Shown here piece after piece: positions 325-16,985 of a DNA stretch of 47,079 nucleotides (position 1 is its first letter; every line of letters begins with the position of its first letter). This stretch comes from Nodosilinea foveolarum (GTDB taxonomy: Bacteria; Cyanobacteriota; Cyanobacteriia; Phormidesmidales; Phormidesmidaceae). The position numbers were made by a program, and so were the translations under genes. The stretch is from positions 1 through 47,079 of the forward strand of contig QBMC01000014.1 in the NCBI GenBank assembly GCA_003242035.1, given 5' to 3'. Below the pieces are notes generated by a model. That model searched no databases and was not told the origin of the DNA. It worked only from the letters and a program-made list of their open reading frames with translations.

Positions 325-3039
325 GTGACTATAGCTGCTGCCGACTTTCTAAATGCTGATATTTCCCGGCCTGCTAGGTATTTGGGCAATGAGCGCGGTG
401 CGGTTCATAAACCCTGGGAGACGGCGGATATTCGCTGGGTGCTCACTTACCCAGAGATTTATGAGGTGGGCGCTTCGAATCTGGGCCATATCATTTTGTA
501 CAGCATTTTGAATGCGCAGCCTCGACAACTGTGCGATCGCGCCTATCTTCCCGCCGCCGATCTCACCGAAAAATTAAGGGCTAGCCAAACGCCCATTTTT
601 GCCGTGGAGTCTCGCCGCAGTTTAGCGGAATTCGATATTCTCGGCTTTAGCTTGAGCTACGAGCTGGGCGCAACCAACATTCTAGAGATGCTTTCACTGG
701 CTCAGGTGCCACTAACCTGGCAAGAGCGTGAGGCTCCAGGCCCTTGGAACCCGGAAGATGGTAGCTGGCCCTTAATTTTCGCGGGCGGGCAAACGGCAAC
801 GTCTAATCCCGAACCCTACGCAGAGTTCTTTGACTTTGTGGCGCTCGGTGACGGGGAAGAACTGCTGCCCGAAATTGGATTAGTCCTTCAAGAAGGCAAA
901 GCGGCTGGGCTAAGTCGAGAAGCGCTGCTGCTAGATCTGGCGCAGGTGCCTGGGGTCTATGTGCCCAGATTTTACGACATGGCTTCGGATGGATCGGTGC
1001 ATCCTAACCGTCCGGATGTGCCCGCGCGAATTCTCAGACGGGTGGCACCACCCATGCCGGAGTACTCCATTGGCCTGGTTCCCTACGTTGAGACCGTGCA
1101 CGATCGCCTAACGGTCGAAATTCGGCGAGGCTGCACTCGGGGCTGTCGCTTTTGTCAGCCGGGAATGTTGACGCGTCCGGCTAGAGACGTGCCGCCAGAG
1201 CAGGTAATTGACACCATTGAGCGAGGTATGCGCGAAACTGGCTACAACGAGTTTTCGCTGCTGTCTTTGAGCTGTTCGGACTATCTGGCACTGCCTGCGG
1301 TAGGCGTAGAGATTAAGAATAGGCTGAAGGATGACAACATCAACTTGTCGCTGCCTAGCCAGCGCGTAGACCGGTTTGATGAAAACATTGCCAATATCAT
1401 CGGCGGTTTGCGGCAAACCGGGATAACCTTCGCACCTGAGGCCGGTACGCAGCGAATGCGCGACATCATCAACAAAGGACTGACGAATGAAGAACTGCTG
1501 CGCGGTGTGAAGACTGCCTACGAGCAAGGTTGGGAGCGTGTGAAGCTCTACTTTATGGTGGGACTACCGGGCGAAACTGATATTGATGTTATTGGCATTG
1601 CTGAGACGGTGCGCTGGCTGCGACGGGAGTGCTTTATCAAGGGCCGTCGGGCGCTAAAATTCAACATTACAATTTCTAATTTAACGCCTAAGCCGCATAC
1701 GCCCTTTCAGTGGCACTCGGTTTCGACCGAGGAGTTTCAGCGTAAGCAGGCTTTGTTGCAGGCTGAGTTCAATGCGATTCGTGGGGTGAAGGTGAACTTT
1801 ACCGACGTGCGAATTTCGGCCATGGAAGATTTTGTGGGTCGGGGCGATCGCCGACTCTCAGCAGTAGTCAAACGCGCTTGGGAACTAGGCGCGGGGATGG
1901 ATTCCTGGTGGGAGAGCGTGGAGAAGGCATTTGGCGCTTGGACGGAGGCGATCGCCGATGCTGGACTCGACTGGAAATACCGCCAAGTAGAGAGCGGCGA
2001 ATGGAGCCTTGACGAAAACATTGAGAGCGCCGAACATGCAGGTCAAGCCGTCAATGATGAGATGGAAGCTGTATTGGCTCGCCCGCTGCCCTGGGATCAT
2101 ATTGATACGGGGATCGAAAAGCAGTGGCTAAAAGATGACTTGAAGCGCGCCCTGGAAGCGGCAGTGGTTCCAGACTGTTCCTTTGAAGGCTGTTCTCACT
2201 GCGGCATCTGCGGCCCAGACTTTGGCCATAACGTGATCGTTCCGCCGCTAGAGATTCCTCAGTTCTCGGGCCACTTCGAACCTAATCAAACCCGCGCTCA
2301 GCGGCTCAGAATCAAGGTTGGCAAGCTAGGCGATATGGCCCTGATCGGTCACCTAGACTTTGCTCGGCTGTTAGACCGTGCGGTTCGCCGAGCCGCTTTG
2401 CCTATTGCCTTCACAGGCGGTTTTCATCCCGGCCCGCGAATTTCTCCGGCCAACGCGCTGCCGCTGGGTTTGACGAGTACCGGAGAAATTATTGACTTTG
2501 AGCTAACTCAAATTATTGCTCCAGAGGAGTTTGAATCGCGTATCAAAGTTCAGCTACCCGAAAATATTCCGCTCTATAGCGTGGAGCAGATTTCGCTAGA
2601 TCTGCCCTCGGCAACGAAGTGTTTGGATCGCGCTGAATACTTATTGGCAGTTGGCCTTGCAAATGAATCAATGGATGGATCGGCGGGTGAGTTAGTGGAT
2701 GCTGACTGGCTGGGTTGGTTAGCTCAAGTACTGGCGGCTGAGCAGATTATGCAGACTAAAACGACCAAGCGCGGCAAAAAGCAGGAAGTGGATTTGCGAT
2801 CGCGCCTTTTCGAACTCGATTTGGCTAGCGAGGCCGACTTAAACAGCCTGCCAGCGTCCGTCCGCCAACGCCTTACCCCCAACCGCAGTGAGCAAGGCAT
2901 ATTCCGCTACGTCGGGAGCTGTCGTAACGACGGTACTTTGCTCAAGCCAACCGACCTGGTTACCATGCTTGAATTTGTCAGCAACCAGACGCTACAACTG
3001 GCCCACGTCCACCGGGTTGGGCTAACGCTCAGCGCGTAG
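325..3039 (+). CDS. Radical SAM protein fused to DUF2344 (TIGR03960/TIGR03936 type)
   Basis: A B12-binding-like N-terminal part is followed by a radical SAM core and a C-terminal DUF2344 domain (from about residue 670). The [4Fe-4S] motif is C270-x3-C274-x2-C277. A second cysteine cluster, C618, C623, C626 and C629, precedes DUF2344 and may bind a further metal or cluster. The family is widespread and is often found near ribosomal or RNase E/G genes in other bacteria; its reaction is not established. The reading frame extends to a TTG at 268, but I prefer the GTG at 325: the conserved family sequence (ARYLGNE) begins soon after it, and a possible -10 (TATAGT, 288-293) lies between the two starts. 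It is a single gene with no operon partner. Family assignment is firm and the exact start is not. Confidence 0.88.
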   Translation: MTIAAADFLNADISRPARYLGNERGAVHKPWETADIRWVLTYPEIYEVGASNLGHIILYSILNAQPRQLCDRAYLPAADLTEKLRASQTPIFAVESRRSLAEFDILGFSLSYELGATNILEMLSLAQVPLTWQEREAPGPWNPEDGSWPLIFAGGQTATSNPEPYAEFFDFVALGDGEELLPEIGLVLQEGKAAGLSREALLLDLAQVPGVYVPRFYDMASDGSVHPNRPDVPARILRRVAPPMPEYSIGLVPYVETVHDRLTVEIRRGCTRGCRFCQPGMLTRPARDVPPEQVIDTIERGMRETGYNEFSLLSLSCSDYLALPAVGVEIKNRLKDDNINLSLPSQRVDRFDENIANIIGGLRQTGITFAPEAGTQRMRDIINKGLTNEELLRGVKTAYEQGWERVKLYFMVGLPGETDIDVIGIAETVRWLRRECFIKGRRALKFNITISNLTPKPHTPFQWHSVSTEEFQRKQALLQAEFNAIRGVKVNFTDVRISAMEDFVGRGDRRLSAVVKRAWELGAGMDSWWESVEKAFGAWTEAIADAGLDWKYRQVESGEWSLDENIESAEHAGQAVNDEMEAVLARPLPWDHIDTGIEKQWLKDDLKRALEAAVVPDCSFEGCSHCGICGPDFGHNVIVPPLEIPQFSGHFEPNQTRAQRLRIKVGKLGDMALIGHLDFARLLDRAVRRAALPIAFTGGFHPGPRISPANALPLGLTSTGEIIDFELTQIIAPEEFESRIKVQLPENIPLYSVEQISLDLPSATKCLDRAEYLLAVGLANESMDGSAGELVDADWLGWLAQVLAAEQIMQTKTTKRGKKQEVDLRSRLFELDLASEADLNSLPASVRQRLTPNRSEQGIFRYVGSCRNDGTLLKPTDLVTMLEFVSNQTLQLAHVHRVGLTLSA

Positions 3040-3113
3040 AATAGGGCATTCCAGCGGCCTATTGCCTACGCTATATGGCTTCTAACATCGCCCCGGTGAG
3101 TTGAGAAATCAAG

Positions 3114-3848
3114 ATGGTTCAGACCGATCAAAAGGTTGCTCGAATAGGGCTAGCAGGCGCTAGTCTGACGACTGCTTTATGCTTTGCGATCCTTATTAAT
3201 GTTATAGGCCCTAGAGAACAAGGCGCACTGGCACAGTCTGTCCGCCGCCAAGCTGTCTCGCAATCTAGAGCCAGGACAGTGGCCCAAACCAATTCCATTC
3301 AGTCGCCGCTCTCCGATCTAGATCAGTTTCCGCTGTTCCCCGCCCTTTCACTATCTCCCTATAAAGCTCAGATAGTCGCCTCAGATAACCTGCTCTCCCC
3401 TCTGGAAATGAAGCAGCCCAGCTTGTCCTGGATAGAGGATCAAATTGGCAATCGCTATGGGAGCGATCGCCTAGTCGAACGTTGGCGAGCCTACCGCGCC
3501 CCCGACAGCACTGGTCAAACCCTCAACTATGTAGATGTCATCGTTAACGAGTCCCTCTGGGATCTGCTCAATTACTTCGAACGCTACGCCTTCATCTCGC
3601 AGTTTGGCACCGCTGCCAAATACCAGGGCTACAACCTCCGCGTATTTCATACAGGCGACGAGCAAACCAGCCTAGACGCCAACGGCTCTAGCGTAAATGG
3701 CGTCAGAACCGCCGTACTGCGGGGCGCATACTTTTGTAACTTCGAGCAGTCAACCCTTCCCCCTAATCCAGTCCAGCCCTCGATACCCTGCAACATCGTC
3801 CTAGACGAATCGAGCCTACGGACGCGCGGCTCACGCCTACCCCGCTAA
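3114..3848 (+). CDS. Secreted protein of unknown function
   Basis: The protein has 244 residues. A hydrophobic stretch at about residues 12-32 followed by GALAQ looks like a signal peptide with cleavage near residue 40, so the mature protein is probably periplasmic or surface-located. The mature part has no motif I recognise. It is rich in aromatic residues (a YFERYAF stretch) and has two cysteines near the C-terminus that could form a disulfide. It starts 74 bp after the radical SAM gene on the same strand and may be co-transcribed, but nothing links their functions. It ends four bases before the convergent solute-binding gene. Probably restricted to cyanobacteria. Confidence 0.7.
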   Translation: MVQTDQKVARIGLAGASLTTALCFAILINVIGPREQGALAQSVRRQAVSQSRARTVAQTNSIQSPLSDLDQFPLFPALSLSPYKAQIVASDNLLSPLEMKQPSLSWIEDQIGNRYGSDRLVERWRAYRAPDSTGQTLNYVDVIVNESLWDLLNYFERYAFISQFGTAAKYQGYNLRVFHTGDEQTSLDANGSSVNGVRTAVLRGAYFCNFEQSTLPPNPVQPSIPCNIVLDESSLRTRGSRLPR

Positions 3849-3852
3849 CTCA

Positions 3853-5115
3853 TCACTCATCACTCATCTTTTCTCCCCCTCTCCCCTTCCGCCAAAAATC
3901 AAAGTACGCCGTCTGCACTGCCGCTGACAGCGGCAAAATCGGCTCGCTGTTTTGAATCGCTTCTAAAGGCAAAGCGCTACTAGCTAACACCTCTGGCAAA
4001 GCGGCCTCTTTTCCTAAAAAGATAGGAGACAAGCCCTCACCCGAGCGGGATATTTGCGTCGCTGGCCCAGTCTCCCAGCAATAGTCAATCCAGGTCTTTG
4101 CCGTCTCGTTCATAGGCGCTCCTTTGGGCCTTACCCAAACATCAGCCGACAGCAGCGATCCCTCTGTGGGTATCGTCATTTTCAGATCTTGATAGCGCTG
4201 CTGGGCCGCGACAATATCTGCCGACCAGCTAATAGCCACGTCTACGTCGTCATTGATCAGTGCCTTAAGAGCGTTTTCTCCGTCGTAGGTCTTGACCTGA
4301 CGATTGAGCTGGGCTAGCAAATCACCCAACTGCTCAGTTAGCTGTTGCTCCACCTCTGCGGCAGTTGGCGGCGTTTTAGTGCTGCTTTCAACGCTGGGAT
4401 TAAAGCTGCCGCTTCGAATCTTCTGTAATAGCCCCAAGACAATGCGCGGATGGTCTGGCATCGCAATGCGGTTTTGTAATGTCGGCTCTAGCAAATCGCG
4501 CCAGCTTGAAAATGGCTCTGCGCCCAATGGGGCCAGTACCTTTCCCTGACGGTAAACAATCGCCAGAGACTGCACCCTATAAGGCGCTGCCCAGAGGTTT
4601 TGTTCAGAGGCAGTGTTCTGATTCTTTGCCGCTGGATTCTGACCAATTTGGCCCTGAATGCCCTGATTAATCAATTGCTGCCAGTTTTGTAGCCAGTCGG
4701 CGGGTAATTTTTCTAATGATTCTGGCGCTAACTGAAGGGGTTCAATTAAATCTTGAGCGATCGCACTAATCAGCCAATAGTCGTCCAGGCTCACCAAATT
4801 ATCCGGCTGAAGCTGCTTAGGATCTTTTACCCAGGGCAATAGCTGCTTCAGCGAAAAGCTATTCGATTTCTTAGGTGATTGCCACCGCTGTAGTTGATAA
4901 AATAAGTCCGATAGCTGATTGAGCATTTGAAATTTGACTGGGGCAGTTGTCTGCTGCCGAAATTTCTTTAGCACTTCAGCCGGTACAGAATCGGTTAGTA
5001 GCGATATCGCCAGGGTATCAACGGCACTGGGCCGACAGCCTAACAAGGTGCTGCCAAGGGTTACCGCCGATCCCAACAGCAATGTTCTTCTATTTATCTT
5101 TATTTGCTGACCCAT
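3853..5115 (-). CDS. Extracellular solute-binding lipoprotein (PotD-like family)
   Basis: The 420-residue protein begins with a twin arginine (R9 R10), a hydrophobic segment and a lipobox LLGC with C27 as the lipidation site, so it is probably a Tat- or Sec-exported lipoprotein. The rest has the layout of bacterial solute-binding proteins of the spermidine/putrescine/iron class, with a segment near residue 300 reading DVDVAISWSAD, the usual place where this family describes a low-complexity ligand pocket. No ABC permease or ATPase gene is next to it, so it is an orphan binding protein and the ligand is unknown. Its start lies about 220 bp from the psbV stop, with an attenuator-like element in between. 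Confidence 0.75.
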   Translation of the reverse strand: MGQQIKINRRTLLLGSAVTLGSTLLGCRPSAVDTLAISLLTDSVPAEVLKKFRQQTTAPVKFQMLNQLSDLFYQLQRWQSPKKSNSFSLKQLLPWVKDPKQLQPDNLVSLDDYWLISAIAQDLIEPLQLAPESLEKLPADWLQNWQQLINQGIQGQIGQNPAAKNQNTASEQNLWAAPYRVQSLAIVYRQGKVLAPLGAEPFSSWRDLLEPTLQNRIAMPDHPRIVLGLLQKIRSGSFNPSVESSTKTPPTAAEVEQQLTEQLGDLLAQLNRQVKTYDGENALKALINDDVDVAISWSADIVAAQQRYQDLKMTIPTEGSLLSADVWVRPKGAPMNETAKTWIDYCWETGPATQISRSGEGLSPIFLGKEAALPEVLASSALPLEAIQNSEPILPLSAAVQTAYFDFWRKGRGGEKMSDE

Positions 5116-5232
5116 ACTTGATGACTCGTAAATTGCCGCACTGTTCGCGCAAATACCATCTATTACCGGGCTTCATCTTATCGCCCTGCTGTTGCCTTTA
5201 TGTCTGCCAGGGGATGCAGGTACACTCAAAGC

Positions 5233-5281
5233 GAAAAGCGCAAGAGACTGTCCTCCTGCGCTTTTCAAAGTTCAGTCTCTT
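5233..5281 (-). terminator. Probable psbV terminator built from two interleaved inverted repeats
   Basis: On the minus strand a 10-bp perfect stem (GAAAAGCGCA at 5266-5257 with TGCGCTTTTC at 5242-5233) ends in a T-rich run and is positioned to stop psbV transcription. A second perfect 9-bp repeat pair (AAGAGACTG at 5281-5273 with CAGTCTCTT at 5250-5242) is interleaved with it in the order B, A, B', A'. The two stems share one base and can form a pseudoknot or act as alternatives. The loop also holds an AGGAGG sequence. Confidence 0.6.
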
Positions 5282-5339
5282 TTAGCCGAGACCTATCTGT
5301 CGATAGTTAGATTGGGTCGATGACTTGATAGAACAGAGC

Positions 5340-5864
5340 CTACAGGGACTGTGTCTTACCTGCGCCCCACTTATCGCCCATAATTTTAGGCATCAGCAAA
5401 ATGTGAGCCGAAATAGCTTCCAAATCGTCTTCGGTAAGCCTGCGCATCTTAGGATATAGATCTGTGCTCTGGGTACTAGGGTGCAGCTCAGAGATCTCTG
5501 TGAGTCCATCGTAGGTGGTCGGATTGTGCAGGTAGTCTACCAGCGCTGCGATGTTATCGCGAGCGGGATAGGCTCCTTCTAAAGACTCAGTGTCTAAGCC
5601 GACGTTGGGATTGGTTTTAGTGATGCCGCCTACGTGACAGGTGGCACACGCCTGGTTGAACTGACGGCGACCGCGTAGAAATGTTTCTACCGGCAGGGTC
5701 GAGGTCTCGCCCTGATCGTTCATTTTGATGGTTCGCGTGGCTGGATCAATTTCAGCGGCGATCGCCTCATTGAAACCACTCCCCACTCCGCTGCCAAATA
5801 CACTGGCCACAAAGATGACAGCAACCGCTAGCCAAGCAGTACATCTCTTCAACAAATTTCTCAT
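5340..5864 (-). CDS. psbV: Photosystem II extrinsic cytochrome c-550 PsbV
   Basis: PsbV binds to the lumenal side of photosystem II and stabilises the oxygen-evolving cluster. The 174-residue precursor has a signal peptide ending AIAA at residue 37. The single haem site is C73-A-T-C76-H77, and H128 in ELHPS is at the position of the second axial ligand (His92 of the mature protein in Thermosynechococcus), so bis-histidine ligation is expected. The stretches GGITKTNPN and YPKMRRLTEDDL are typical. Unlike most PsbV proteins, which end in Tyr-Tyr, this one ends in GAGKTQSL. No psbV2 or petJ follows; the next gene is an unrelated solute-binding protein. The start has only a weak ribosome-binding site. 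Confidence 0.93.
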   Translation of the reverse strand: MRNLLKRCTAWLAVAVIFVASVFGSGVGSGFNEAIAAEIDPATRTIKMNDQGETSTLPVETFLRGRRQFNQACATCHVGGITKTNPNVGLDTESLEGAYPARDNIAALVDYLHNPTTYDGLTEISELHPSTQSTDLYPKMRRLTEDDLEAISAHILLMPKIMGDKWGAGKTQSL

Positions 5865-6107
5865 TTTTATGCTCGCTTCTCAGACACGCAACACAGCACT
5901 GACCCAAATGCAGCTAAACCACTGAGGTTAAACCGCAAAATGAATCGAATTATGCATTTATCATGCCACGAATAGGACGGCAGTAGTGCGGACAAGCGCG
6001 AAGATGCACGGATATCTCGCTGATTCTCTGGCGAAAGGCTAATAAGTCGCTCAGATTAGTTACCTTTCGTTACAAACAGCGGTTGTCTAGCGCCCCAATT
6101 AGCCTCT

Positions 6108-7079
6108 TTACGATTCCAGCGAGTCCGTGTTGCGCAGAACCGGCGCGACTTGTTTTTCTGGCTGCTTTTCTGAGCTGGCGGCAACAGCAGCGTGGGGTCT
6201 AGCAGCGATCGCCACCTTATTCACAGGGCGATGCAGCCGAATTAGCTGAGCCAAGCTCTGCTTAAGCTGAGTACGCGGCACAATCGTATCGACAAAGCCA
6301 TGCTTCAGCAGATACTCCGCTGTCTGAAAGTCATCAGGCAGCTTTTCGCGCACGGTTTGCTCCACTACCCGACGACCCGCGAAGCCAATGGTGGCCTCTG
6401 GCTCTGCCAAAATGATGTCTCCGAGCATGGCAAAGCTAGCCGTTACGCCGCCCGTGGTTGGGTGAGTTAAAACAGGAATGTACAACAGCCTAGACTCCCG
6501 ATGACGCTCTAACGCCGCGCTAATTTTTGCCATTTGCATCAGGCTCAGCATCCCTTCTTGCATTCTAGCCCCGCCGGAAGAGCAGACAATAATGGCAGGC
6601 AGCTTGTCGGCGGTGGCTCGTTCGATTAGCCGAGTTAGTTTTTCACCCACCACAGATCCCATACTGCCGCCCATAAAGCGAAAGTCCATAACGCCCAGCG
6701 CTGCGGGTTCTCCCCCAATTTGACCGAGTCCCGTTTGGACGCCATCTATTAGCTTGGTTTTTGCTTGGGTTTCGCGAATGCGGTCGGAATAGGCTTTGCG
6801 ATCGCGAAACCGCAGCGGGTCTTGCGGCGAAATTTGCGTATCTATTGGCGACCACGAACCCTCATCAATTAGCTGCTCAATGCGCTCTACGCTAAATACT
6901 CGGTGGTGAAATTTGCATTCCGGACACACCTGCTGATTTGCCTTCAAGTCTTTCGCATAGATCAGCTCATCGCAGCGCTCGCACTTCCGCCATAGGCCAT
7001 CGGCAATCTCGCGCTCATGTCGATTCTCGCTAATCAAACCTGTCTTCCTACGATTGGCAAACCAGTCAAATAATGACAT
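6108..7079 (-). CDS. accD: Acetyl-CoA carboxylase carboxyltransferase subunit beta
   Basis: AccD pairs with AccA to transfer the carboxyl group from carboxybiotin to acetyl-CoA, the first committed step of fatty-acid synthesis. The N-terminal zinc ribbon has C33, C36, C52 and C55, and the crotonase-like core contains the family stretches [11 protein letters not shown] and [11 protein letters not shown] use the ATG at 7079 (MSLFDWF), where this family normally starts; an ATG five codons upstream is also open. The roughly 35 residues after the core are alanine-rich and look disordered. It stands alone. Two CTGTTTGG(C/T)TGAC direct repeats lie upstream at 7132-7144 and 7158-7170. Confidence 0.95.
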
Positions 7080-7217
7080 TTTCCCGCTTATCAAACCTAA
7101 TTGGGTGGTTGCCCCAAATCGCTTAGCCCAACTGTTTGGCTGACGCTGTTTAACTCGCTGTTTGGTTGACAGCGCCTGACAGCATGATTTGACAAGGCAA
7201 ATTACTTTTCCATCCTA

Positions 7218-8063
7218 CTACAGCCCCATCGGAAAGAAGATAGATAGATAAGCCGCTATCAAAGCTTGACCGTAAAACAGCGTGAGCACTGCGCCCAACG
7301 CCAGATATGGCCCGAACGGGATATGTTGCTTTGATCCCAATATTCCTAGGGCGATCGCGCCACTACCCACAACCGCACCCATCGCCGCCGCCAAAAAGGT
7401 TGCTAGCAGCAAACCAGGCCAGCCCAACCAAGCCGCCATCATCGCGGCTAGCTTAGCATCACCGCCACCCATCGCGGCCTTGCCAAAGGCCCGACTGCCC
7501 GCAATACCTACCAAGTCAAACAGCCACAGGCCAAAAATACTTGCGCCGACTGCCGCCGCGACTCCGCTCATAACATGCACTAAGCTCGGCTCCGTCAAGT
7601 AGCCCATCCAGCCTTGAAACAGCCAGCCTAGAACCAATCCAGAAGCCGTTAAGCTATTCGGCAGCGTCATGGTATCTAGGTCAATGAGGGCTAATGCCAG
7701 CAGCCAGCACACAAACAGCCAATGCCCAGGAGTCGCCCAGCTTATGCCAAAAAGCCCGTATACCGATACAAACAGGCAAGCGCAGGAAAACTCCACCATC
7801 GGATAGCGAGCGGCAATCGGTAAGCGGCAGCTTCGACAGCGCCCTTTCAGCCACAGCCAGCCTAACACCGGCACGTTGTCGTAGGGCTTTAAGCGAGTTT
7901 TGCAGTTTGGGCAACGCGAAGGCGGATGCAGTAGAGACAGCCCTGCCGGTAGCCGATAGACCACTACGTTAAGAAAGCTGCCAACGGCTGCGCCCAGAAT
8001 GAAGATGAGGACGAACGGCAGCAGTTCGTAGAACAGGTCGGTGGAGAACAGCTCAGAACTCAT
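7218..8063 (-). CDS. pilD: Prepilin leader peptidase / N-methyltransferase
   Basis: An integral membrane aspartic protease that removes the leader peptide of type IV prepilins and pseudopilins and methylates the new N-terminus. The 281-residue protein has the N-terminal methyltransferase part with a four-cysteine site (C51, C54, C76, C79), followed by the A24 peptidase part with its first catalytic aspartate in DLDT (D128 or D130) and the second in the GxGD motif (G199-D202, MGGGDAK). About eight hydrophobic segments are visible. Length and layout match full-size PilD. No pil genes are adjacent, which is common in cyanobacteria. Confidence 0.92.
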   Translation of the reverse strand: MSSELFSTDLFYELLPFVLIFILGAAVGSFLNVVVYRLPAGLSLLHPPSRCPNCKTRLKPYDNVPVLGWLWLKGRCRSCRLPIAARYPMVEFSCACLFVSVYGLFGISWATPGHWLFVCWLLALALIDLDTMTLPNSLTASGLVLGWLFQGWMGYLTEPSLVHVMSGVAAAVGASIFGLWLFDLVGIAGSRAFGKAAMGGGDAKLAAMMAAWLGWPGLLLATFLAAAMGAVVGSGAIALGILGSKQHIPFGPYLALGAVLTLFYGQALIAAYLSIFFPMGL

Positions 8064-8168
8064 GGGCAGCAGTCGAAGTAGAAGACCTTCGTAGAGTGCC
8101 CAGATATCGACAATATTTGATGTGATTGAAGCGGTAGTCCTAGCTTCAACGACGTCAGTCAGAGGCTA

Positions 8169-8545
8169 CTAGAGCTGCCAAAAGCGAACCATCTCGATAA
8201 TCAAAATGGCGGCCCACACGAAGATGCTAATGCCCGCTGCGGCTGCGGCAATGTCTTTAATAATGCGGATACGCTCGTTATGATTAGGCTCTACAAGATC
8301 GCACAAAACTTCAATGGCGCTATTGAACAACTCAGAAATGAGCATCAGCCCCATTGCTAGCAATATCAAGTTGGTATCTATTCTATCCACTTTTGAAGCG
8401 AAAAGGAGACGAATAGCAAAATGATTGATAGAACGACTTTATAGGCGACGCTGAAGTCGGTGATCACTGCGACATGCAGACCCGCTAGAATTACTTTTAG
8501 CTTGCGAGCCGGGTTATAGCGAGCGCTGCGATATGGATGACTCAT
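8169..8545 (-). pseudogene. dgkA: Diacylglycerol kinase, split by a 5-bp tandem duplication
   Basis: The upstream frame starts at an ATG at 8545 and runs 55 codons (MSHPYRSARYNPARK...SLQKWIE) to a TAG at 8380-8378. The downstream frame continues the same protein (DTNLILLAMG...) and ends at 8169. Together they give about 123 residues with the fold of prokaryotic DgkA: amphipathic N-terminus, three membrane helices and the catalytic ELFNSAIE stretch. At the junction the plus strand reads TCTAT twice (8377-8381 and 8382-8386); removing one copy restores a single frame through KWIDTNL. The downstream frame has its own GTG at 8390, overlapping the first frame, so a two-piece product is possible. 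DgkA phosphorylates diacylglycerol or undecaprenol. Recent mutation, reversible slippage and assembly error are the alternatives. Confidence 0.85.
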
Positions 8546-8635
8546 GCTTGGAGCGCTGGTAGTTTGACTGTAGTTTAATTCTTTGAAGATGTAGTCTTTA
8601 GAGATTCTATCTTTCTCTAAGCTACGACAAACAAG

Positions 8636-9037
8636 CTATGCTACGCCCGGTTCAATTTGGCTAAAGGGGACAAAGCATTCTTGCGGCAGCAGCACTGGCT
8701 TGTCGCCGAATACGAGCTTGCCACGACGATTCAGGCGACCAATCGCGACGCCGATAGGCCGCTGCATCACTTCTGGATGCACTTCATAAAAGGTGCGATA
8801 GATCTGGCGAGCAGCTTTAATTAGTTCTGGATCTAGTAACACTGAATCATCTCCAAAGGCGAGTCGGTCGGTTTTTTCAGGCAGCATATTAGGCATTTTG
8901 TTTGGCCTAGCGTCAAGCCCACTTATAGCAGATCTACTGATGTCTACTCTATTAATGTTTGGCTTGTCTATAGTCGGCGGGGCCATTCTTGATGCTGATT
9001 TTACAGCTTCTCTTGCTCTTTCAACGACTCCATTCAT
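8636..9037 (-). CDS. Protein of unknown function, 133 residues
   Basis: I do not recognise this protein. The first 55 or so residues are polar and proline-rich and look disordered. The C-terminal half is more compact and conserved-looking (ELIKAARQIYRTFYEVHP, then RPIGVAIGRLNRRGKLVFG). There is no signal peptide, membrane helix or metal site. It lies alone on the minus strand between leuB and the broken dgkA, about 90 bp upstream of the latter. Codon use and HIP1-type context resemble the neighbours, so it is probably a native cyanobacterial gene. Confidence 0.6.
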   Translation of the reverse strand: MNGVVERAREAVKSASRMAPPTIDKPNINRVDISRSAISGLDARPNKMPNMLPEKTDRLAFGDDSVLLDPELIKAARQIYRTFYEVHPEVMQRPIGVAIGRLNRRGKLVFGDKPVLLPQECFVPFSQIEPGVA

Positions 9038-9132
9038 CAGAAATTGAAACTCCTAAACGACAATCGAAAACTCTAATAGCCTAAAGATAGCTGACAATGC
9101 TCACACAATAGTTTTCATGTACTATCTTTGCG

Positions 9133-10236
9133 CTATTCACTGGCCGCGATCGCCTTCCTCAACACCTCACCCATTTCCTTACATCCCACTGGCGTCATCC
9201 CTTCAGACATAATGTCGCCCGTTCGATAGCCCTGGTCTAGCACGGCTAGCACCGCCTGCTCAATCTTCTCAGCAGCAGCAGGCTGGCCTAAGCCGTAGCG
9301 CAACATCATCGCCGCGCTAAGCACTTGGGCCAGAGGATTGGCCTTGTCCTGTCCCGCAATATCAGGCGCTGACCCATGCACCGGTTCGTATACACCAGGG
9401 CCACTCTCGCCCAGACTGGCAGAGGGTAGCATACCGATACTGCCTGTTAGCATGGCTGCCGCATCCGAAAGAATATCGCCGAATAAATTACCGGTGACAA
9501 TGGTGTCGAACTGTTTGGGGGCGCGCACGAGCTGCATCGCGGCGTTATCTACATATAGATGAGAAAGTTCTACGTCTGAGTAGCTTTGGCTCAGGGTTGT
9601 GATGCGATCGCGCCATAGCTGCGAAACCTCCAGCACATTTGCCTTATCTACAGAGCACAGCCGCCCTCCCCGCTTTTGCGCCGTCTCGAAGGCAACTTTC
9701 CCTATCCGGTCAATCTCGCTGCTGGTGTAGACCATCGTGCTCACCCCGCGCTGCTCGCCGTTCTCCATCTCAAAAATGCCTTTCGGCGAGCCAAAGTAAA
9801 TGCCACCCGTTAGCTCGCGCACCACCATAATATCTACGCCCTCGACCACCTCTGGCTTCAGCGACGAGGCCGCTAGTAGCTGCGGTAAGATAGTCGCGGG
9901 ACGCAAATTGGCGAATAAACCCAATCCCGATCTGAGTCCTAGCAGTCCAGTTTCGGGCCGCTGGGCGCGAGGTAAATTGTCCCATTTGTAGCCGCCGATA
10001 GAGGCTAGCAAAACAGCGTCACTCTGGCGACAAGTTTCTAGCGTTTCGTCTGGCAGCGGCGAACCGGTTGCATCAATTGCCGCTCCGCCGATTAGCGCTT
10101 CGTTGAATTCGAAGGCGATCGCCTGCTGCTCGCCTATCTGCTTTAGGACGGCCACGGCCACAGCCATAATCTCTGGGCCAATCCCGTCTCCAGGCAGTAG
10201 CGTAATGCGATAGGTCTTATTAGTAGGGGCGATCAT
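9133..10236 (-). CDS. leuB: 3-isopropylmalate dehydrogenase
   Basis: LeuB oxidises and decarboxylates 3-isopropylmalate with NAD+ in leucine synthesis. The 367-residue length is standard. The N-terminus [13 protein letters not shown], the substrate loop with the arginines of RPATILP, the stretch [12 protein letters not shown], the metal-binding NLFGDILSD and the cofactor-binding [12 protein letters not shown] are all intact. It is divergent from hisC across a 147-bp gap, so the two amino-acid genes probably share a control region. No leuC, leuD or leuA is next to it. Confidence 0.96.
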
Positions 10237-10383
10237 GGTCGAACCAAGCTTGCGAGACAGAAGCCATAGTACCTGATGCTGAGCGTGTAAAATGCTGGGC
10301 GTGTAAAATACTATGCGTACTAAGTCGTAGGCGGTTCCTACGCAGTTCTTTTTTAGCTCTTTGGAGTAGGAAACCCCACCGGT

Positions 10384-11556
10384 ATGACCTTTTTGCGTGA
10401 CGATTTGACTCAGCTAGCGGCATACAAGTCTCCGCATCCCACCGACTCAGATGGCGAAGCAGACAGGGTTCAGCCAGTACTAGACGGCCTAGACACCAAC
10501 GAAAGCCCGCTCGACCTACCTGAAGATCTCAAGGCAGACTTAGCAGAAGCCTATTGTCATCAAATTTCGGCCAACCGTTATCCCAATGGCGATCACCAGG
10601 CGTTGAAACAGGCCATTGTTGACTACGCCCTGCGGTCGGGAAAAATCGCCCCTGAGATAATCAGCCCTGAGAATGTAACATTGGGCAACGGCTCAGATGA
10701 GCTGATTCGCTCTGTGCTGATGGCGACCTGTCTGGGTAACCACGGCTCCATTTTGGTCAGCGAACCGACGTTCTCGATGTACGGCATTTTGGCCAATACG
10801 CTCGGCGTCAAGGTTTGCCGACTGCAACGTCAAGACAATTTTGAGGCAGATACCGCCGCTGCTCAATCGGCTATAGAATCGCTAGGAACCGCTGATGTGC
10901 CTCCCGTACGAGCTGTCTTTATGGTGCATCCCAACTCGCCGACGGGCAACGCGCTAACGCAGCGAGAACTCGACTGGCTAAAGCAGCTCTCGACCGATGT
11001 TTTGGTAGTAGTAGATGAGGCTTATTTTGAGTTCAGCGGTCATACAACGCTGTCGGATGCCTTGAGCCGACCCAACTGGCTAGTGCTTAGAACGTTCTCA
11101 AAAGCGTTTCGACTGGCGGCTCATCGGGTTGGCTACGGCATTGCGCATCCTGCGATTATTTCAGCGTTAGAGAAGCTGCGGTTGCCCTACAACCTGCCTA
11201 GTTTTTCTCAGGCAGCGGCGCTAACGGCACTGGCTCATAGCGATCGCCTCCTCACTCAAATTCCCACGCTTATTAGCGAACGCGATCGCCTATCGCAAGT
11301 TCTATCAGAGCATCCCTATTTACAGGTGTGGCCCAGCGATAGCAACTTTATTTATGTGCGGTTGAGCGATCGCGGTCAAGCAGCGCTAGAAGTGACTAAG
11401 CAAGCCGACGGTCTGGTAAAAATGTTTGAGCAGTTGCGAGCGAGCGGTACGCTAATTCGACACACTGGCGGCGGACTGCGCATTAGCATCGGCACCGCTG
11501 CTGAAAATAGAAGAACGCTAGCCAACTTACAGCAGGTCTTAGGCAGCAAGCCGTAG
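10384..11556 (+). CDS. hisC: Histidinol-phosphate aminotransferase
   Basis: A fold-type I PLP enzyme that converts imidazole acetol phosphate to histidinol phosphate, and often also acts on aromatic amino acids. Visible features are DTNESP near residue 38, the NGSDELI cofactor stretch at about 102, HPNSPTGN at 182, DEAYFEF at 211 and the Schiff-base lysine K240 in [10 protein letters not shown]. The C-terminal arginine stretch GGGLRISIG contacts the substrate. The length of 390 residues is slightly above the bacterial norm because of a longer N-terminal segment. Monocistronic, divergent from leuB. Confidence 0.93.
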
Positions 11557-11609
11557 GATATCTACGAGGTACTCGCTACCCAACCTAAGGATCTACCAAA
11601 CCTGAGAAC

Positions 11610-12344
11610 CTACCAGACGAATCCAGATCGTACGCGCCGAATCGTTCTGGGCAACACGCCGACTAGCAGCGCAAAAGCCTGATCGGGCACTAAATCTACG
11701 GTGGCCTGATCGAAGTAGGTCTTGAACTGCTCTAGAATCATTCGCGCCCTATCGTCTGGGCGAGGCTGGTCGGTAAAGTTTTGAGTGAGCCGAATCCACT
11801 GAAGCCGAATCTTGATTGCGTTCTGATGGGCTTCATGAGAATCGGGACTGAGCAGCGACAGATTGCCGATAGGAATAACGCCCACAATACCTTCTGAATC
11901 TAAATCGCCCCCCACAGCAGCCCCTGGCCCAGCGAATTCAGCGTGGAATTCTCTGAGCACGATTAAGCCATTACGGCGACGGCTGTTGACAACCCAAAGC
12001 TGGCCGCTTTCTAGCTTTTCAACCACTTCATCAACTTTCAAATCTTGATTCACTGATTCGCCGAAAAACTTCCAGTGGCTTCGTGAGCCTGAGTGTACCG
12101 CTTTAGGAGCACATCCTTCTAACGGTTCTATTGCGGTGACTAGCTTTTTTACTGCCTTTTCTGTAGCCGCCTTTTCTGCTGTAGCCTCTCCTGATTGTAT
12201 ACCGGCACTGATACGATCAAAACGACCAGATAGTTCACAATGTATGGACGAGCCAGCCGTCTGCGCAACTTTCCCGACAGGAAGCTTAGAGGGTATAGGG
12301 ACTATAGAATTAGTAGCAGACTGAAGATCCATTGACTGGAGCAT
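11610..12344 (-). CDS. Protein of unknown function, 244 residues
   Basis: Not recognised. Residues 1-75 are low-complexity with an alanine/lysine/glutamate run (EKAATEKAVKK). The middle part contains WVVNSRRRNGLIVLREF, suggesting a small beta-rich domain, and the C-terminal part is helical (DDRARMILEQFKTYFDQ) ending in VLPRTIRRVRSGFVW. There is no signal peptide or membrane helix. Convergent with hisC (53 bp apart). Possibly a cyanobacterium-specific gene. The start is supported by an AAGGGG sequence upstream, and a second in-frame ATG four codons later is an alternative. Confidence 0.6.
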   Translation of the reverse strand: MLQSMDLQSATNSIVPIPSKLPVGKVAQTAGSSIHCELSGRFDRISAGIQSGEATAEKAATEKAVKKLVTAIEPLEGCAPKAVHSGSRSHWKFFGESVNQDLKVDEVVEKLESGQLWVVNSRRRNGLIVLREFHAEFAGPGAAVGGDLDSEGIVGVIPIGNLSLLSPDSHEAHQNAIKIRLQWIRLTQNFTDQPRPDDRARMILEQFKTYFDQATVDLVPDQAFALLVGVLPRTIRRVRSGFVW

Positions 12345-12597
12345 TCGTCTTGCGCCCCTTGGAGATAACGACAGGTAACCCCTCCTAATGTGATACGAAT
12401 TCTCGCCATAGAACCAAAGAACAAATACTTTTTATTCATTCTTTATAGAAATCTACGCAGTCCTTTACAGGCAGAACATAAAGCTCTGAGAAGGAAGCTA
12501 CCTGGACTCAGTAAATTTATTGAGTTTAGCTTGTAATTTTTTCAGCACATCACTCAACGTATCATCTCAGCTATCAGCCCAATCGAGACAAGACTCA

Positions 12598-12702
12598 ATG
12601 GCTGACAAATCGCTGATTTGGATATCAATACTAGTTGGCATTAGCGGAATGCAGCTTTATCTTTTCTTAAGAATGCTCTTGAAGACACCCTTTACTGATT
12701 GA
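12598..12702 (+). CDS. Possible 34-residue single-membrane-helix protein
   Basis: An ATG at 12598 opens 34 codons: MADKSLIWISILVG then a hydrophobic helix to about residue 28 and a short polar tail. The size and shape match the many small one-helix proteins of cyanobacterial thylakoid complexes, but it matches none that I know. The ORF can be extended upstream to a TTG at 12520. There is no convincing ribosome-binding site, and the stop overlaps the end of the convergent GNAT gene. The rest of the 346-bp gap (12345-12691) shows nothing else to me. Confidence 0.25.
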   Translation: MADKSLIWISILVGISGMQLYLFLRMLLKTPFTD

Positions 12703-13426
12703 CTTCGCCTTGTAGACGCTTTGATAGCAATAGCCGTTCAGGGCGAAGCCCTAGTCCTGCCAGTATTGGGTTACTGACTTCGCAAGGCTGATAACCGGCT
12801 TGCGTATAGAGCGATCGCGCCGCCTGATTGTCTGCCATAACATGTAGATAAACGCGATCAAATCCCCACTGTAGGGCAACGCTTTCGCAGGTGTGCAGGA
12901 GCTGCTTTGCCGCGCCCTGACGCCGATAGGTCGAGTCTATCGCTAGGTTTGATAAGTAGGCCCTTCTGGGTGGAAAAAAACGCCAGGTTTCGCAAGGGCG
13001 CTGAGAAATTTCGATGGTGCCAATAACAGTGCCAGCAGACAGCTTTTTGGAGGCCGTAGAATTGACTTTGGCCGCGACTAAACAAGCATATTGGCTGGAG
13101 TGTGTCTTTAGCCGAGTCCTGATATCTTCTCGGATGCCGATGCGCATTAGCCAATAAAACCAGTGGGTAGCCTCGACTTGGGGATAAAAACTGCTGAGTA
13201 ACACAGCAATCATTTGGGGCAAGTCTTCTATGCGGGCGGCCCGGACGCGAATCGGGGCTGACTTTTCTTCAGGCGATCGCTCCGATAACCGCTCTAATGA
13301 CTGATCTGATACCCATTCTGTAGATTGTGCAGCGCAGGAAAACAAAGACGGCTGACCAGAAGGCTTTGAGACGCTGACAACAACAGGTTTTAAAGGCAGC
13401 GTCGGCTCACCGTTAGTCGCGGACAT
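12692..13426 (-). CDS. GNAT-family N-acetyltransferase
   Basis: The GNAT fold occupies residues 60-240. The acetyl-CoA pyrophosphate-binding loop is YRRQGAAKQLL (the R/Q-x-x-G-x-A form), preceded by YLSNLAIDSTYR (beta-4) and followed by VYLHVMADNQAARSLYTQAGY, the classic beta-5/alpha-4 region of RimI-like enzymes. The first 55 residues are a polar, serine-rich extension without homology to the fold. The substrate (protein N-terminus, amine or antibiotic) cannot be predicted. Divergent from the cyclase gene across a 190-bp gap. Confidence 0.85.
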   Translation of the reverse strand: MSATNGEPTLPLKPVVVSVSKPSGQPSLFSCAAQSTEWVSDQSLERLSERSPEEKSAPIRVRAARIEDLPQMIAVLLSSFYPQVEATHWFYWLMRIGIREDIRTRLKTHSSQYACLVAAKVNSTASKKLSAGTVIGTIEISQRPCETWRFFPPRRAYLSNLAIDSTYRRQGAAKQLLHTCESVALQWGFDRVYLHVMADNQAARSLYTQAGYQPCEVSNPILAGLGLRPERLLLSKRLQGEVNQ

Positions 13427-13616
13427 AGTAAAAACTCAAAGCGGTTGGGAACTTTATGTAGGACGTTATACGCGGGCACCTCAGTCTGTATGAAGGGGCG
13501 ATCGCAAACGAATAAATGCCTTTGACAGTGAGGCTTTTGCACTTTAAATGCTAGCTCTTCACCTATCAGCCCTGGCGCCCCAACATGACATTTTCGGCCT
13601 AATGAGAGATTGATGC

Positions 13617-16600
13617 ATGGCAGTTAGAGAGCTTAGCCGACAGACAAAGGCATTCAAGCATAAAATCTTGGTGGTAGATGACGAACCCGACAATTTAGAT
13701 CTGCTCTACCGAACATTCTACCGAGATTTTAAGGTGATCAAGGCTCAAAGTGGCCAAGATGCTTTGGAAACGATGGCTGAGCAAGAAGATATTGCCGTCA
13801 TTATTTCTGATCAGCGAATGCCCGGTATGAGTGGGACAGAGCTGCTGCGGCTGACCGCTGATCGCTATCCTAACTCTATTCGCATCATGCTTACGGGCTA
13901 TACCGACGTAGAGGATTTGGTTGAGGCGATCAATACCGGCAAGGTTTTTAAGTATGTCACAAAGCCCTGGGAAGAGGACGACTTACGCACGGTAGTAAAT
14001 CAGGCGGTGGATACCCACAGCATATTGCAATCGCGGACGCAGGAGCTAAACCGAGCCGTTCGACAAGAAACCCTGCTGAATGCGATTACGAATACGATTC
14101 GCAGTGCGCAAACGTCTCAAGAGATGCTGAAGACCATCGTGGAAACGTTAGGTCATGCGTTTGAGCTGGACTACGGCATTGTGAAGCCGATTGTGGATGG
14201 CTCATTGGGAACGACCTCTTTTGAGTATTTGGGAACGGGATTGTCAGATGAGGTGCGATCGCCCGAAAACCGTTCGCAAACGCTCTCTTTACTGAACGAA
14301 ACCGTCTGGCCAACGGCGCTAACCCAGCACCTAGAAACCTTCGACGAAGTGATGACCGCTACGCCCACGGAAGCCAGCATTTCGGCTTACCAGCAGCTAA
14401 ATATTCAAACGAGCTTGCTCATTCCACTGAGCTGTAAGCAAGATGTACTGGCCGTGCTAGCTTTGCATAAATGCACGAACCACAAACCCTGGCAAGAGAG
14501 CGAGATTAAGCTCTTAACCACTTTGGCCGATCAAGCGGCGCTTGCCCTTTCTCAAACCTGGACTTACGAGCAGGTACAGGCCCTAGCCCAAAGAGAAGTG
14601 TTGATCAATACGATTACGCAAGCCCTACATGCTAGCTTAGAACCGGCGGAAATTTTCGCGGCGATCACTCAAAAGCTGGGTCAGGCGCTACAGGCCGATA
14701 GCTGTACGCTGTCGCTATGGACAGACACGCATTCGCAGTGCGTTGGTCGCTACGACGCCAGCGTAGAGTCGATGCCGACGCTGCCTGAAGCGGATATTGT
14801 GATCGACAGCGACGATATTCTTAGCAAACTGCTGTTTACGGCTGCGCCGGTAGTGGTGAGTACGCCAGGAGAAGCTGAAGCGGCTATGGCTAGCGAGAAA
14901 GCGTTACTAGCAGTACCCTTGTTGGCAGACTCTAGAATTACGGGCTGCATCATTTTACAGCAGTTGCATAGCGATCGCCAGTGGCAAATCGAGGAAGTGA
15001 ACCTGGCTCAAGCAGTAGCTAATCAGGCCGCCGTTGCGGTACAGCAAGCCAATCTGTACCAGCAAACGCGCCAGCAAGCAGAGCAGTTATTAGAGCTAGA
15101 CCAGCAGAAAAACGCCTTCTTTCAGAATATCTCGCACGAATTTAGAACGCCGCTAACGCTCACCATTGGCCCCTTAGAATCGGCGGTAGAGCGCAACGAA
15201 GGGCTGGATGCTGAGCAGTGTGTAATTGCCCTCCGAAATTCTCGGCGCTTACTCCGACTGGTGAATCAGCTACTGGACTTGCAGCGACTAGATGCGGGCA
15301 AAATGCAGCCCACCTTTCGCCCGTGCAATCTGGCCCAGTTTGCCACCGAAGTGGTCGAGGCATTCCAAACTTATTGCGAGCGTAAAGAGATTGCGCTGCG
15401 CACTGAAATTGCCGCCTGCCCAAACGTCTATTTAGACTTGGAAAAATTCGATAAAGTCCTTTACAACCTGCTGTCTAACGCTATGAAATTTACCCCGGCG
15501 GGTAAGTCGATTACGGTGCGCCTGAATCAGGTGAATGGTATGGCTAGGCTACAAGTGCAGGACGAAGGTATCGGCATTCGTGATGATCAAATACCTCATT
15601 TATTCGAGCGGTTTCGGCAGGCGGATGGATCGGCAAATCGACATTATGAAGGAACTGGGTTGGGGCTTTCGTTGGTAAAGGAGCTGACAGATTTGCACGG
15701 CGGCGACATCTCGGTGGAATCGGTTTACGGTGAAGGTACGACCTTTATGATTGAGCTACCGTTGGGGGCGGATCATTTGCCTGCTGAACAGGTAGTAGAG
15801 CAGGAACTGACGGCGCAAAAAGGTCGAGCGGCGGTGGAACTCTCTGATATTGAGACGGCGAGTGCTTCTGATAAAACGGTGATGTTGCCGCCTGAAGTGG
15901 AGGGGGCGACGGCTGAGCGAACGTCGTTTGAAGGCGCTCAAATATTGGTGGTAGATGACAATCCAGATTTGCGGGGCTATGTGTCTAGCGTGTTGCAGCG
16001 TCAGGGCTATCAGGTGCGGACGGCTGAGCAGGGCGCGGCGGGCTTGGAAATGGCGATGACTTATAAGCCCAATTTAATTATCACGGACTTGATGATGCCG
16101 GGTGTTAACGGGTTGGAGATGATTGAGCGGATTCGTAAGGATATGGATTTGCGAGGGACGCCCATCGTATTGCTAACGGCGAAGGTGGATAACGAAACGC
16201 GGCTAGAAGGGGTAGAGCAGGGCGCGGATGCTTATTTGTCTAAGCCGTTTAATGATCGCGAGCTGCTAGCGGAAGTGCGTAATTTGCTGGCGCTAAAGGA
16301 GAATGAGCAGAAGGTGGCGCAGCTCAATCAGTATTTGACTGAGTCGGTATTGCAACGATTTTTGCCGCCGTCTTTGGTGCAAAAAGCCAGTAAGGGCAAT
16401 CTTCAGCTCGATTTACGGCCTGAGCCTCGTTTGGTGACGATTTTGTTTAGTGACATTGTGGGCTTTACACAGCTTAGTAATACGTTGCGATCGCGCCGAA
16501 TAGCCGAATTGCTCAACGAATACTTAGAAACGATGACCCATGCCATCTTTAACAACGGGGGCACGGTGGATAAGTTTATGGGGGACGCGGTGCTGGCGCT

Positions 16601-16985
16601 GTTTGGTGCGCCTGAAGAGATGAGTCCGAATGAGCAGGTGAAAAGAGCGATCGCTGCTGCCCGCCAAATGTATAGCGATCTAGATATGCTCAATCAGCGG
16701 TGGGCAAAGCAGGGCATTGGCCCAGTGCAGTTTCGCTGCGGCATTCATCAGGGGACGGCAGTGGTGGGCATGTTTGGGAGCGCCGAGCGGTCTGACTATA
16801 CGGCGATTGGGCCAAGCGTGAATATTGCGGCTCGCATCCAAGAAGCGGCGACGGCTGAGACTATTCTGGTTTCTGCGGCGGTGGCGGACTATTTGGATGA
16901 GCAAGAAATCGTTAAGTTCGAGCCGCTGAAGCTGAAGGGTATTGACGAGACGGTATTGACCTTTGGCGTGAAGACTCGTTTGTAA
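13617..16985 (+). CDS. cyaC: CyaC-type adenylate cyclase with embedded phosphorelay
   Basis: Domain order: receiver 1 (about 14-135; D21, D22, phospho-acceptor D65, K116), GAF (150-310), GAF (325-480), HisKA with H507 in SHEFRTP, HATPase (about 600-725), receiver 2 (775-890; acceptor D824), and a class III nucleotide cyclase (930-1122) with metal-binding D946 and D990 and the purine-contacting K986. This is the layout described for Anabaena and Spirulina CyaC (receiver, GAF, kinase, receiver, cyclase), at about the same length, with one apparent extra GAF domain. By analogy, autophosphorylation at H507 and relay to D824 would control cAMP formation. Every catalytic residue I can check is present. 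Soluble; no membrane helices. Monocistronic or followed by the TonB-like gene 81 bp downstream. Confidence 0.9.
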   Translation: MAVRELSRQTKAFKHKILVVDDEPDNLDLLYRTFYRDFKVIKAQSGQDALETMAEQEDIAVIISDQRMPGMSGTELLRLTADRYPNSIRIMLTGYTDVEDLVEAINTGKVFKYVTKPWEEDDLRTVVNQAVDTHSILQSRTQELNRAVRQETLLNAITNTIRSAQTSQEMLKTIVETLGHAFELDYGIVKPIVDGSLGTTSFEYLGTGLSDEVRSPENRSQTLSLLNETVWPTALTQHLETFDEVMTATPTEASISAYQQLNIQTSLLIPLSCKQDVLAVLALHKCTNHKPWQESEIKLLTTLADQAALALSQTWTYEQVQALAQREVLINTITQALHASLEPAEIFAAITQKLGQALQADSCTLSLWTDTHSQCVGRYDASVESMPTLPEADIVIDSDDILSKLLFTAAPVVVSTPGEAEAAMASEKALLAVPLLADSRITGCIILQQLHSDRQWQIEEVNLAQAVANQAAVAVQQANLYQQTRQQAEQLLELDQQKNAFFQNISHEFRTPLTLTIGPLESAVERNEGLDAEQCVIALRNSRRLLRLVNQLLDLQRLDAGKMQPTFRPCNLAQFATEVVEAFQTYCERKEIALRTEIAACPNVYLDLEKFDKVLYNLLSNAMKFTPAGKSITVRLNQVNGMARLQVQDEGIGIRDDQIPHLFERFRQADGSANRHYEGTGLGLSLVKELTDLHGGDISVESVYGEGTTFMIELPLGADHLPAEQVVEQELTAQKGRAAVELSDIETASASDKTVMLPPEVEGATAERTSFEGAQILVVDDNPDLRGYVSSVLQRQGYQVRTAEQGAAGLEMAMTYKPNLIITDLMMPGVNGLEMIERIRKDMDLRGTPIVLLTAKVDNETRLEGVEQGADAYLSKPFNDRELLAEVRNLLALKENEQKVAQLNQYLTESVLQRFLPPSLVQKASKGNLQLDLRPEPRLVTILFSDIVGFTQLSNTLRSRRIAELLNEYLETMTHAIFNNGGTVDKFMGDAVLALFGAPEEMSPNEQVKRAIAAARQMYSDLDMLNQRWAKQGIGPVQFRCGIHQGTAVVGMFGSAERSDYTAIGPSVNIAARIQEAATAETILVSAAVADYLDEQEIVKFEPLKLKGIDETVLTFGVKTRL

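Follow-up and report, generated by a model that had tools for sequence, protein, structure and literature searches.

The window, the whole 47,079-nucleotide stretch of Nodosilinea foveolarum DNA analysed here, carries in region 8169-8545 two overlapping open frames on the minus strand, which share 13 bases. Both are pieces of one diacylglycerol kinase (DAGK) gene, a second paralogue in its genome. The 5′ piece (8378-8545) starts with ATG and encodes 55 residues, ending in KWIE before a TAG stop; the 3′ piece (8169-8390), listed as an open reading frame from an out-of-frame GTG, encodes 73 residues and starts with MDRIDTNL. By analogy, the 5′ piece would comprise the N-terminal tail and the first membrane helix, and the 3′ piece the second and third membrane helices together with the catalytic ELFNSAIE block. 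The single-chain layout of the DAGK_prokar family (a surface helix and three membrane helices, assigned here by analogy) is thus divided in the window copy between two frames.

The 3′ piece matches Pfam family DAGK_prokar (PF01219) at 61.5 bits, against a cut-off of 22.3, and retains the catalytic block E-x-x-N-x-x-x-E (as SELFNSAIE) along with the downstream K-D; the 5′ piece alone has no Pfam match at E up to 0.1. Compared with 12 relatives, the 3′ piece is 66-82% identical, and the 5′ piece is 49-67% identical to their N-terminal part (for L042, across 46 residues only).

The frame changes at a perfect 5-bp tandem doublet of 10 bases, TCTATTCTAT (8377-8386). All 31 translated related copies, from 30 genomes, read through this junction in a single frame as W-[VI]-D. 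(These are 31 of the 37 matches from 36 other genomes; those of G231, G105, G154, G190, G257, and G332 were left out.) Comparison of the junction sequences found the repeated unit in none of the 31, and in five of them (L032, L034, L104, L107, and L114) the local DNA contains the unit once. The break in the frame of this DAGK_prokar gene at the doublet was correctly observed. The initial annotation is confirmed on these points: it had described a DAGK-family gene broken at a 5-bp tandem duplication, with both halves conserved and the catalytic block kept.

As such, the doublet is unremarkable. The window contains 27 perfect 5-bp doublets, where 38.1 ± 6.0 are expected from 100 first-order Markov sequences, so that the count is not above chance; 16 of the 27 fall within 18 long open reading frames, and none of them extends to three units. 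Its position is another matter: by hand estimate, the chance that any of the 27 tracts would fall at the point of frame loss is about 0.6% (27 × 10 / 47079). This makes the duplication a reasonable, indeed likely, cause of the break.

The kinase family, whose characteristic reaction is the phosphorylation of diacylglycerol (or undecaprenol) at the expense of ATP, is widespread. A DAGK_prokar match was found in 53 of the 58 genomes searched, the window's genome included. Apart from one exception in G041, the matches score either high (97-124 bits, the strong class) or low (65-75 bits, the weak class). The weak class will be called group B, and it includes the window gene (66.4 bits); all 12 of the group-B relatives scanned match PF01219. 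In single-sequence searches, solved DgkA chains are matched at 1e-12 by the canonical copy on contig C11 of the window's genome, and at 0.0015 by a group-B relative. A profile built from group B aligns with these chains over its positions 46-112 (E from 2e-5 to 7e-4), and both the E-x-x-N-S-A-I-E block and the K-D block fall in register there. (Among DgkA structures is PDB 3ze3, of the Escherichia coli enzyme.) Group B therefore shares with the prokaryotic diacylglycerol kinase family both the profile match and the placement of the catalytic blocks, but it has diverged, and the window copy is in addition frameshifted. A further DAGK_prokar gene, in G041 (G041:C4:64042-64351), also appears as two overlapping pieces, which score 82.9 and 30.7 bits and one of which is interrupted by a TAG; the family is thus broken in another genome too.

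The initial annotation treated the window gene as the dgkA of its cell, and had named a second intact dgkA elsewhere, together with a tract that does not vary, as observations that would count against its reading. Such a second gene was looked for and found: the genome (4.75 Mb, 299 contigs) encodes on contig C11 (G000:C11) an intact DAGK_prokar gene of 117 bits, with no stops, flanked by ybeY-like and trpG-like open reading frames (names assigned by eye). Two DAGK_cat (PF00781) genes without stops are present as well. The C11 gene belongs to the same Pfam family and the same genome as the window copy, but it is intact and strong, whereas the window paralogue is of a kind that occurs sparsely and at differing places. 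Between group B and the canonical paralogue of the genome, BLASTP returned one short weak alignment (E 0.043). Elsewhere in the family, G003 has two strong-class DAGK_prokar genes (G003:C193 and G003:C269; L044 and L020) beside its group-B copy; L044 was fetched, yet was not used as a group-B copy. A literature search on undecaprenol kinase together with diacylglycerol kinase in cyanobacteria found nothing, and one on the locus name slr0054 gave nothing related.

Group B itself is thinly distributed. With a group-B protein as query, matches at E ≤ 1e-15 occur in 37 of the 388 genomes of the class, the window's genome included, a count that a broken copy with both pieces below the E limit would escape. 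The other 36 genomes hold 37 matches, none with an internal stop, and the sole two-piece case is that of the window's genome. (The G087 match is partial, at a contig end, and that of G332, the weakest at 42% identity, may fall outside group B.) Within the genus, group B is present in four of the six other genomes; in G001 and G004, only the distant canonical gene was found, and not group B. This pattern, 37 of 388 genomes together with absence from G001 and G004, marks the group-B gene as optional. G005 has two group-B copies (G005:C177, L035; and G005:C234, L034), one of them on a 6.7 kb contig; its assembly is listed at 7% contamination, so the copy on the 6.7 kb contig may be foreign.

The genomic address of the gene is also variable. 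Upstream of the window copy lies a gene for a conserved small protein of 133 residues (8636-9037, minus strand), which in relatives is found near leuB; downstream lies a gene for a type IV prepilin peptidase of the pilD type (7218-8063, minus strand), with Pfam domains A24_N_bact and Peptidase_A24. The small protein has a match in 28 of 33 genomes, the window's included, and its C-terminal part is the conserved one; it scores above the cut-off of no Pfam family, and NCBIfam gave no match up to E 0.1. The order hisC-leuB-small ORF-pilD-accD is common to the window and to L059-L062 (Phormidesmis or Leptolyngbya). Of 15 small-ORF loci (L079-L093), taken from the 27 other genomes that match the small ORF, 11 also have pilD, with 15-400 bases between the matches; in the remaining four, pilD was not seen within the fetched flank. 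The kinase is absent from the small ORF-pilD site in all 11 loci with both flanks (tblastn with both pieces, 1e-4). The window's genome has 575 bases in the corresponding gap.

In G005 and G006, the kinase lies instead between antiporter-like and permease-like genes (named by eye). The window's genome has such a pair close together without a kinase (L136, contig C188; one match stops at 2559 and the next starts at 2714). Another locus of this genome, L137, has an antiporter-like gene but shows no such permease. Neighbouring open reading frames of at least 70 residues were compared all against all for 12 group-B loci and the window. Adjacent neighbours are common only to L034 and L036 (on both sides) and to L035 and L037 (on the upstream side). 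Farther out, L033 and L041 show similarity 3-4 kb upstream, and small open reading frames of L037 and L041 are 44% identical over 84 residues. Inspection by eye of the upstream and downstream open reading frames at group-B loci revealed no common function, and operon context thus suggested none for the kinase. A fixed partner gene for group B was rejected, since the 12 loci share neighbours in two pairs only. Together, the kinase-free sites and the few shared neighbours indicate that the group-B gene appears to move without fixed company.

A mobile vehicle for group B was likewise considered and rejected, as none was found in plasmid, phage, viral-contig, or repeat searches: the plasmid collection contains nothing that matches window positions 7200-9100; neither plasmids nor phages gave a match to a group-B protein (L041); the group-B alignment gave 42 pattern stretches in viral contigs, none of which was confirmed; and region 8060-8700 has no direct or inverted repeats of at least 10 bases (seed 9). 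Among the loci fetched, the 95 bases before the gene and the 110 after it match solely the genome's own loci. Four other group-B loci (L035, L037, L038, and L041) have look-alike leaders of about 25 bases before the ATG, noted by eye, though only L035 and L037 share a neighbour gene; it is as if the leader were carried along with the gene. In L038 (G016:C45), the group-B gene lies between open reading frames resembling, by eye, a group II intron reverse transcriptase and an IS transposase.

How well have the two pieces been preserved? The 3′ piece keeps all 21 of its positions that are invariant among 30 relatives, and the 5′ piece all but one of 17, the exception being a proline replaced by isoleucine in the presumed first membrane helix. 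Four of the 30 relatives likewise deviate at one position of the 5′ part that is invariant in the rest. Neither piece has a second lesion. A comparison with 22 relatives, the first on the list, gives median pN values of 0.136 for the 3′ piece (0.126 among relatives) and 0.255 for the 5′ piece (0.150 among relatives). Saturation of synonymous sites, seen for each piece with 15 of these 22, makes dN/dS unusable, and with it any measure of relaxed selection or of how old the break is.

Amino-acid divergence was ranked over 22 rows, with nine more distant relatives left out. The median for the 5′ piece is 0.415, the highest (from Y10 on, 0.356, the second highest), and the 3′ piece, at 0.25, ranks second. 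In the window copy, the 5′ part has diverged 1.55 times as much as the 3′ part; among the 30 relatives this ratio ranges from 0.98 to 1.65, and only L034 exceeds the window copy. The branch leading to the window copy is long, at 0.38 against a median of 0.11. (L114, cut by a contig end, was left out of the invariant-position, pN, and branch analyses.) The higher 5′ divergence could reflect relaxed constraint, or merely the long branch. These figures allow a recent break, but they give no date.

Several other readings of the locus deserve comparison with gene loss. One is that the doublet is a sequencing or assembly error, and that the strain itself carries a single unit and an unbroken gene. 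The assembly is a draft of 299 contigs, the comparison set contains one genome per species and hence no second witness, and conserved pieces free of any other lesion are what such an error would leave. However, no other frame break was flagged in 11 gene blocks (13,626 bases) of the window, these being the blocks within 331-16982 that match open reading frames of the same-genus genomes G001, G002, and G004; the scan included no separate positive control, although the similar group-B search does display the split kinase as two pieces. Moreover, an exact 5-bp duplication is an uncommon kind of short-read error except in long repeats. An artefact is judged rather unlikely. Nor does the doublet look much like a genetic switch. 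The initial annotation suggested that the tract might turn the gene on and off by slippage, and a perfect tandem unit at the break, of a length that is not a multiple of three, is what expansion and contraction would need. Phase-variable tracts are expected to have many units, above chance; the tract at 8377-8386 has two, in a window where such doublets are commonplace, even inside long open reading frames, and the relatives lack the repeat at the junction. More units would also be expected by comparison with meningococcal opa genes, 83% of which (63 of 76) have five or more pentanucleotide units, with a mutation rate of 0.16 per month in tracts of nine or more units but 0.007 in those of five or fewer, according to passages of PMC7157529; the same passages describe tracts from 3 units up in mod genes. 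Slippage switching of the window kinase is unlikely, and as the explanation of this locus phase variation is very improbable.

A different possibility is that the two pieces are made separately, through re-initiation at the GTG or a translational frameshift, and assemble in the membrane as a functional split enzyme. The geometry is suggestive: the pieces overlap, the break would fall in a loop between membrane helices, and the 3′ piece is still conserved. In addition, an A_AAG just before the conserved TGG, noted by eye, is a weak possible -1 site, and a slip there would enter the second frame without a stop. According to passages of PMC4703834, E. coli DgkA is trimeric, with adjacent subunits contributing residues to one and the same active site. 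The start codon itself is uninformative. The listed GTG consists of the last base of the preceding codon and the TG of a conserved tryptophan codon, TGG; an out-of-frame ATG or GTG accordingly occurs at the junction in all 31 intact relatives (24 ATG and 7 GTG). As a by-product of the conserved TGG, its presence says nothing about design, and the split membrane enzyme that the initial annotation thought the overlapping GTG-started frame could give gains no support from it. By eye, there is neither a Shine-Dalgarno-like stretch before the GTG nor an X_XXY_YYZ heptamer. Furthermore, the paralogue is unsplit in all 36 other genomes carrying group B, and the 5′ piece lacks the invariant proline, though the four deviating relatives soften that point. 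The residues said in the same source passages to affect catalysis in the E. coli enzyme are Glu28 and Glu34, then Glu69, Asn72, and Glu76 (PMC4703834). These lie on both sides of the break point, so that neither piece should be active alone, provided that group B has counterparts of the E. coli positions Glu28 and Glu34. Two-piece assembly is possible but unsupported, and a functional split enzyme is very unlikely; that both pieces are translated by coupled re-initiation into a working split kinase, en route to a two-gene enzyme, is less likely still.

The window gene is instead very probably a recently inactivated accessory second DAGK paralogue, frameshifted by the 5-bp duplication. The best reading is that of an incipient pseudogene, a case of ordinary decay in a genome that keeps a stronger, intact member of the family. 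In this account of gene loss, replication slippage would have produced the tandem duplication, in the loop that joins membrane helices one and two, and so shifted the frame. Translation would then stop directly after the first helix; the other half, which carries the catalytic glutamates and asparagine, would be out of frame, and presumably no active enzyme would be made from the locus. The loss would be tolerated because the gene is optional. The event is judged recent because neither piece has a second lesion. Two observations sit less comfortably with gene loss: the 3′ piece is about as conserved as in the intact relatives, which would also fit a piece in use, and the window copy stands on a long branch.

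Frameshift pseudogenes created by short tandem duplication offer the obvious comparison. Like them, the window gene combines one duplication, one frame loss, and an optional gene, with no other lesion; no point of difference was found. (A search for literature on short tandem duplications that create bacterial frameshift pseudogenes found none.) The interpretation offered in the initial annotation is, overall, partly supported.

By itself, the loss matters little, as it involves one optional gene and one small duplication. The analysis does correct the idea of a bacterium losing its only DgkA-type kinase. Moreover, it brings to light a cyanobacterial lipid-kinase paralogue that appears and disappears from genome to genome and whose location shifts.
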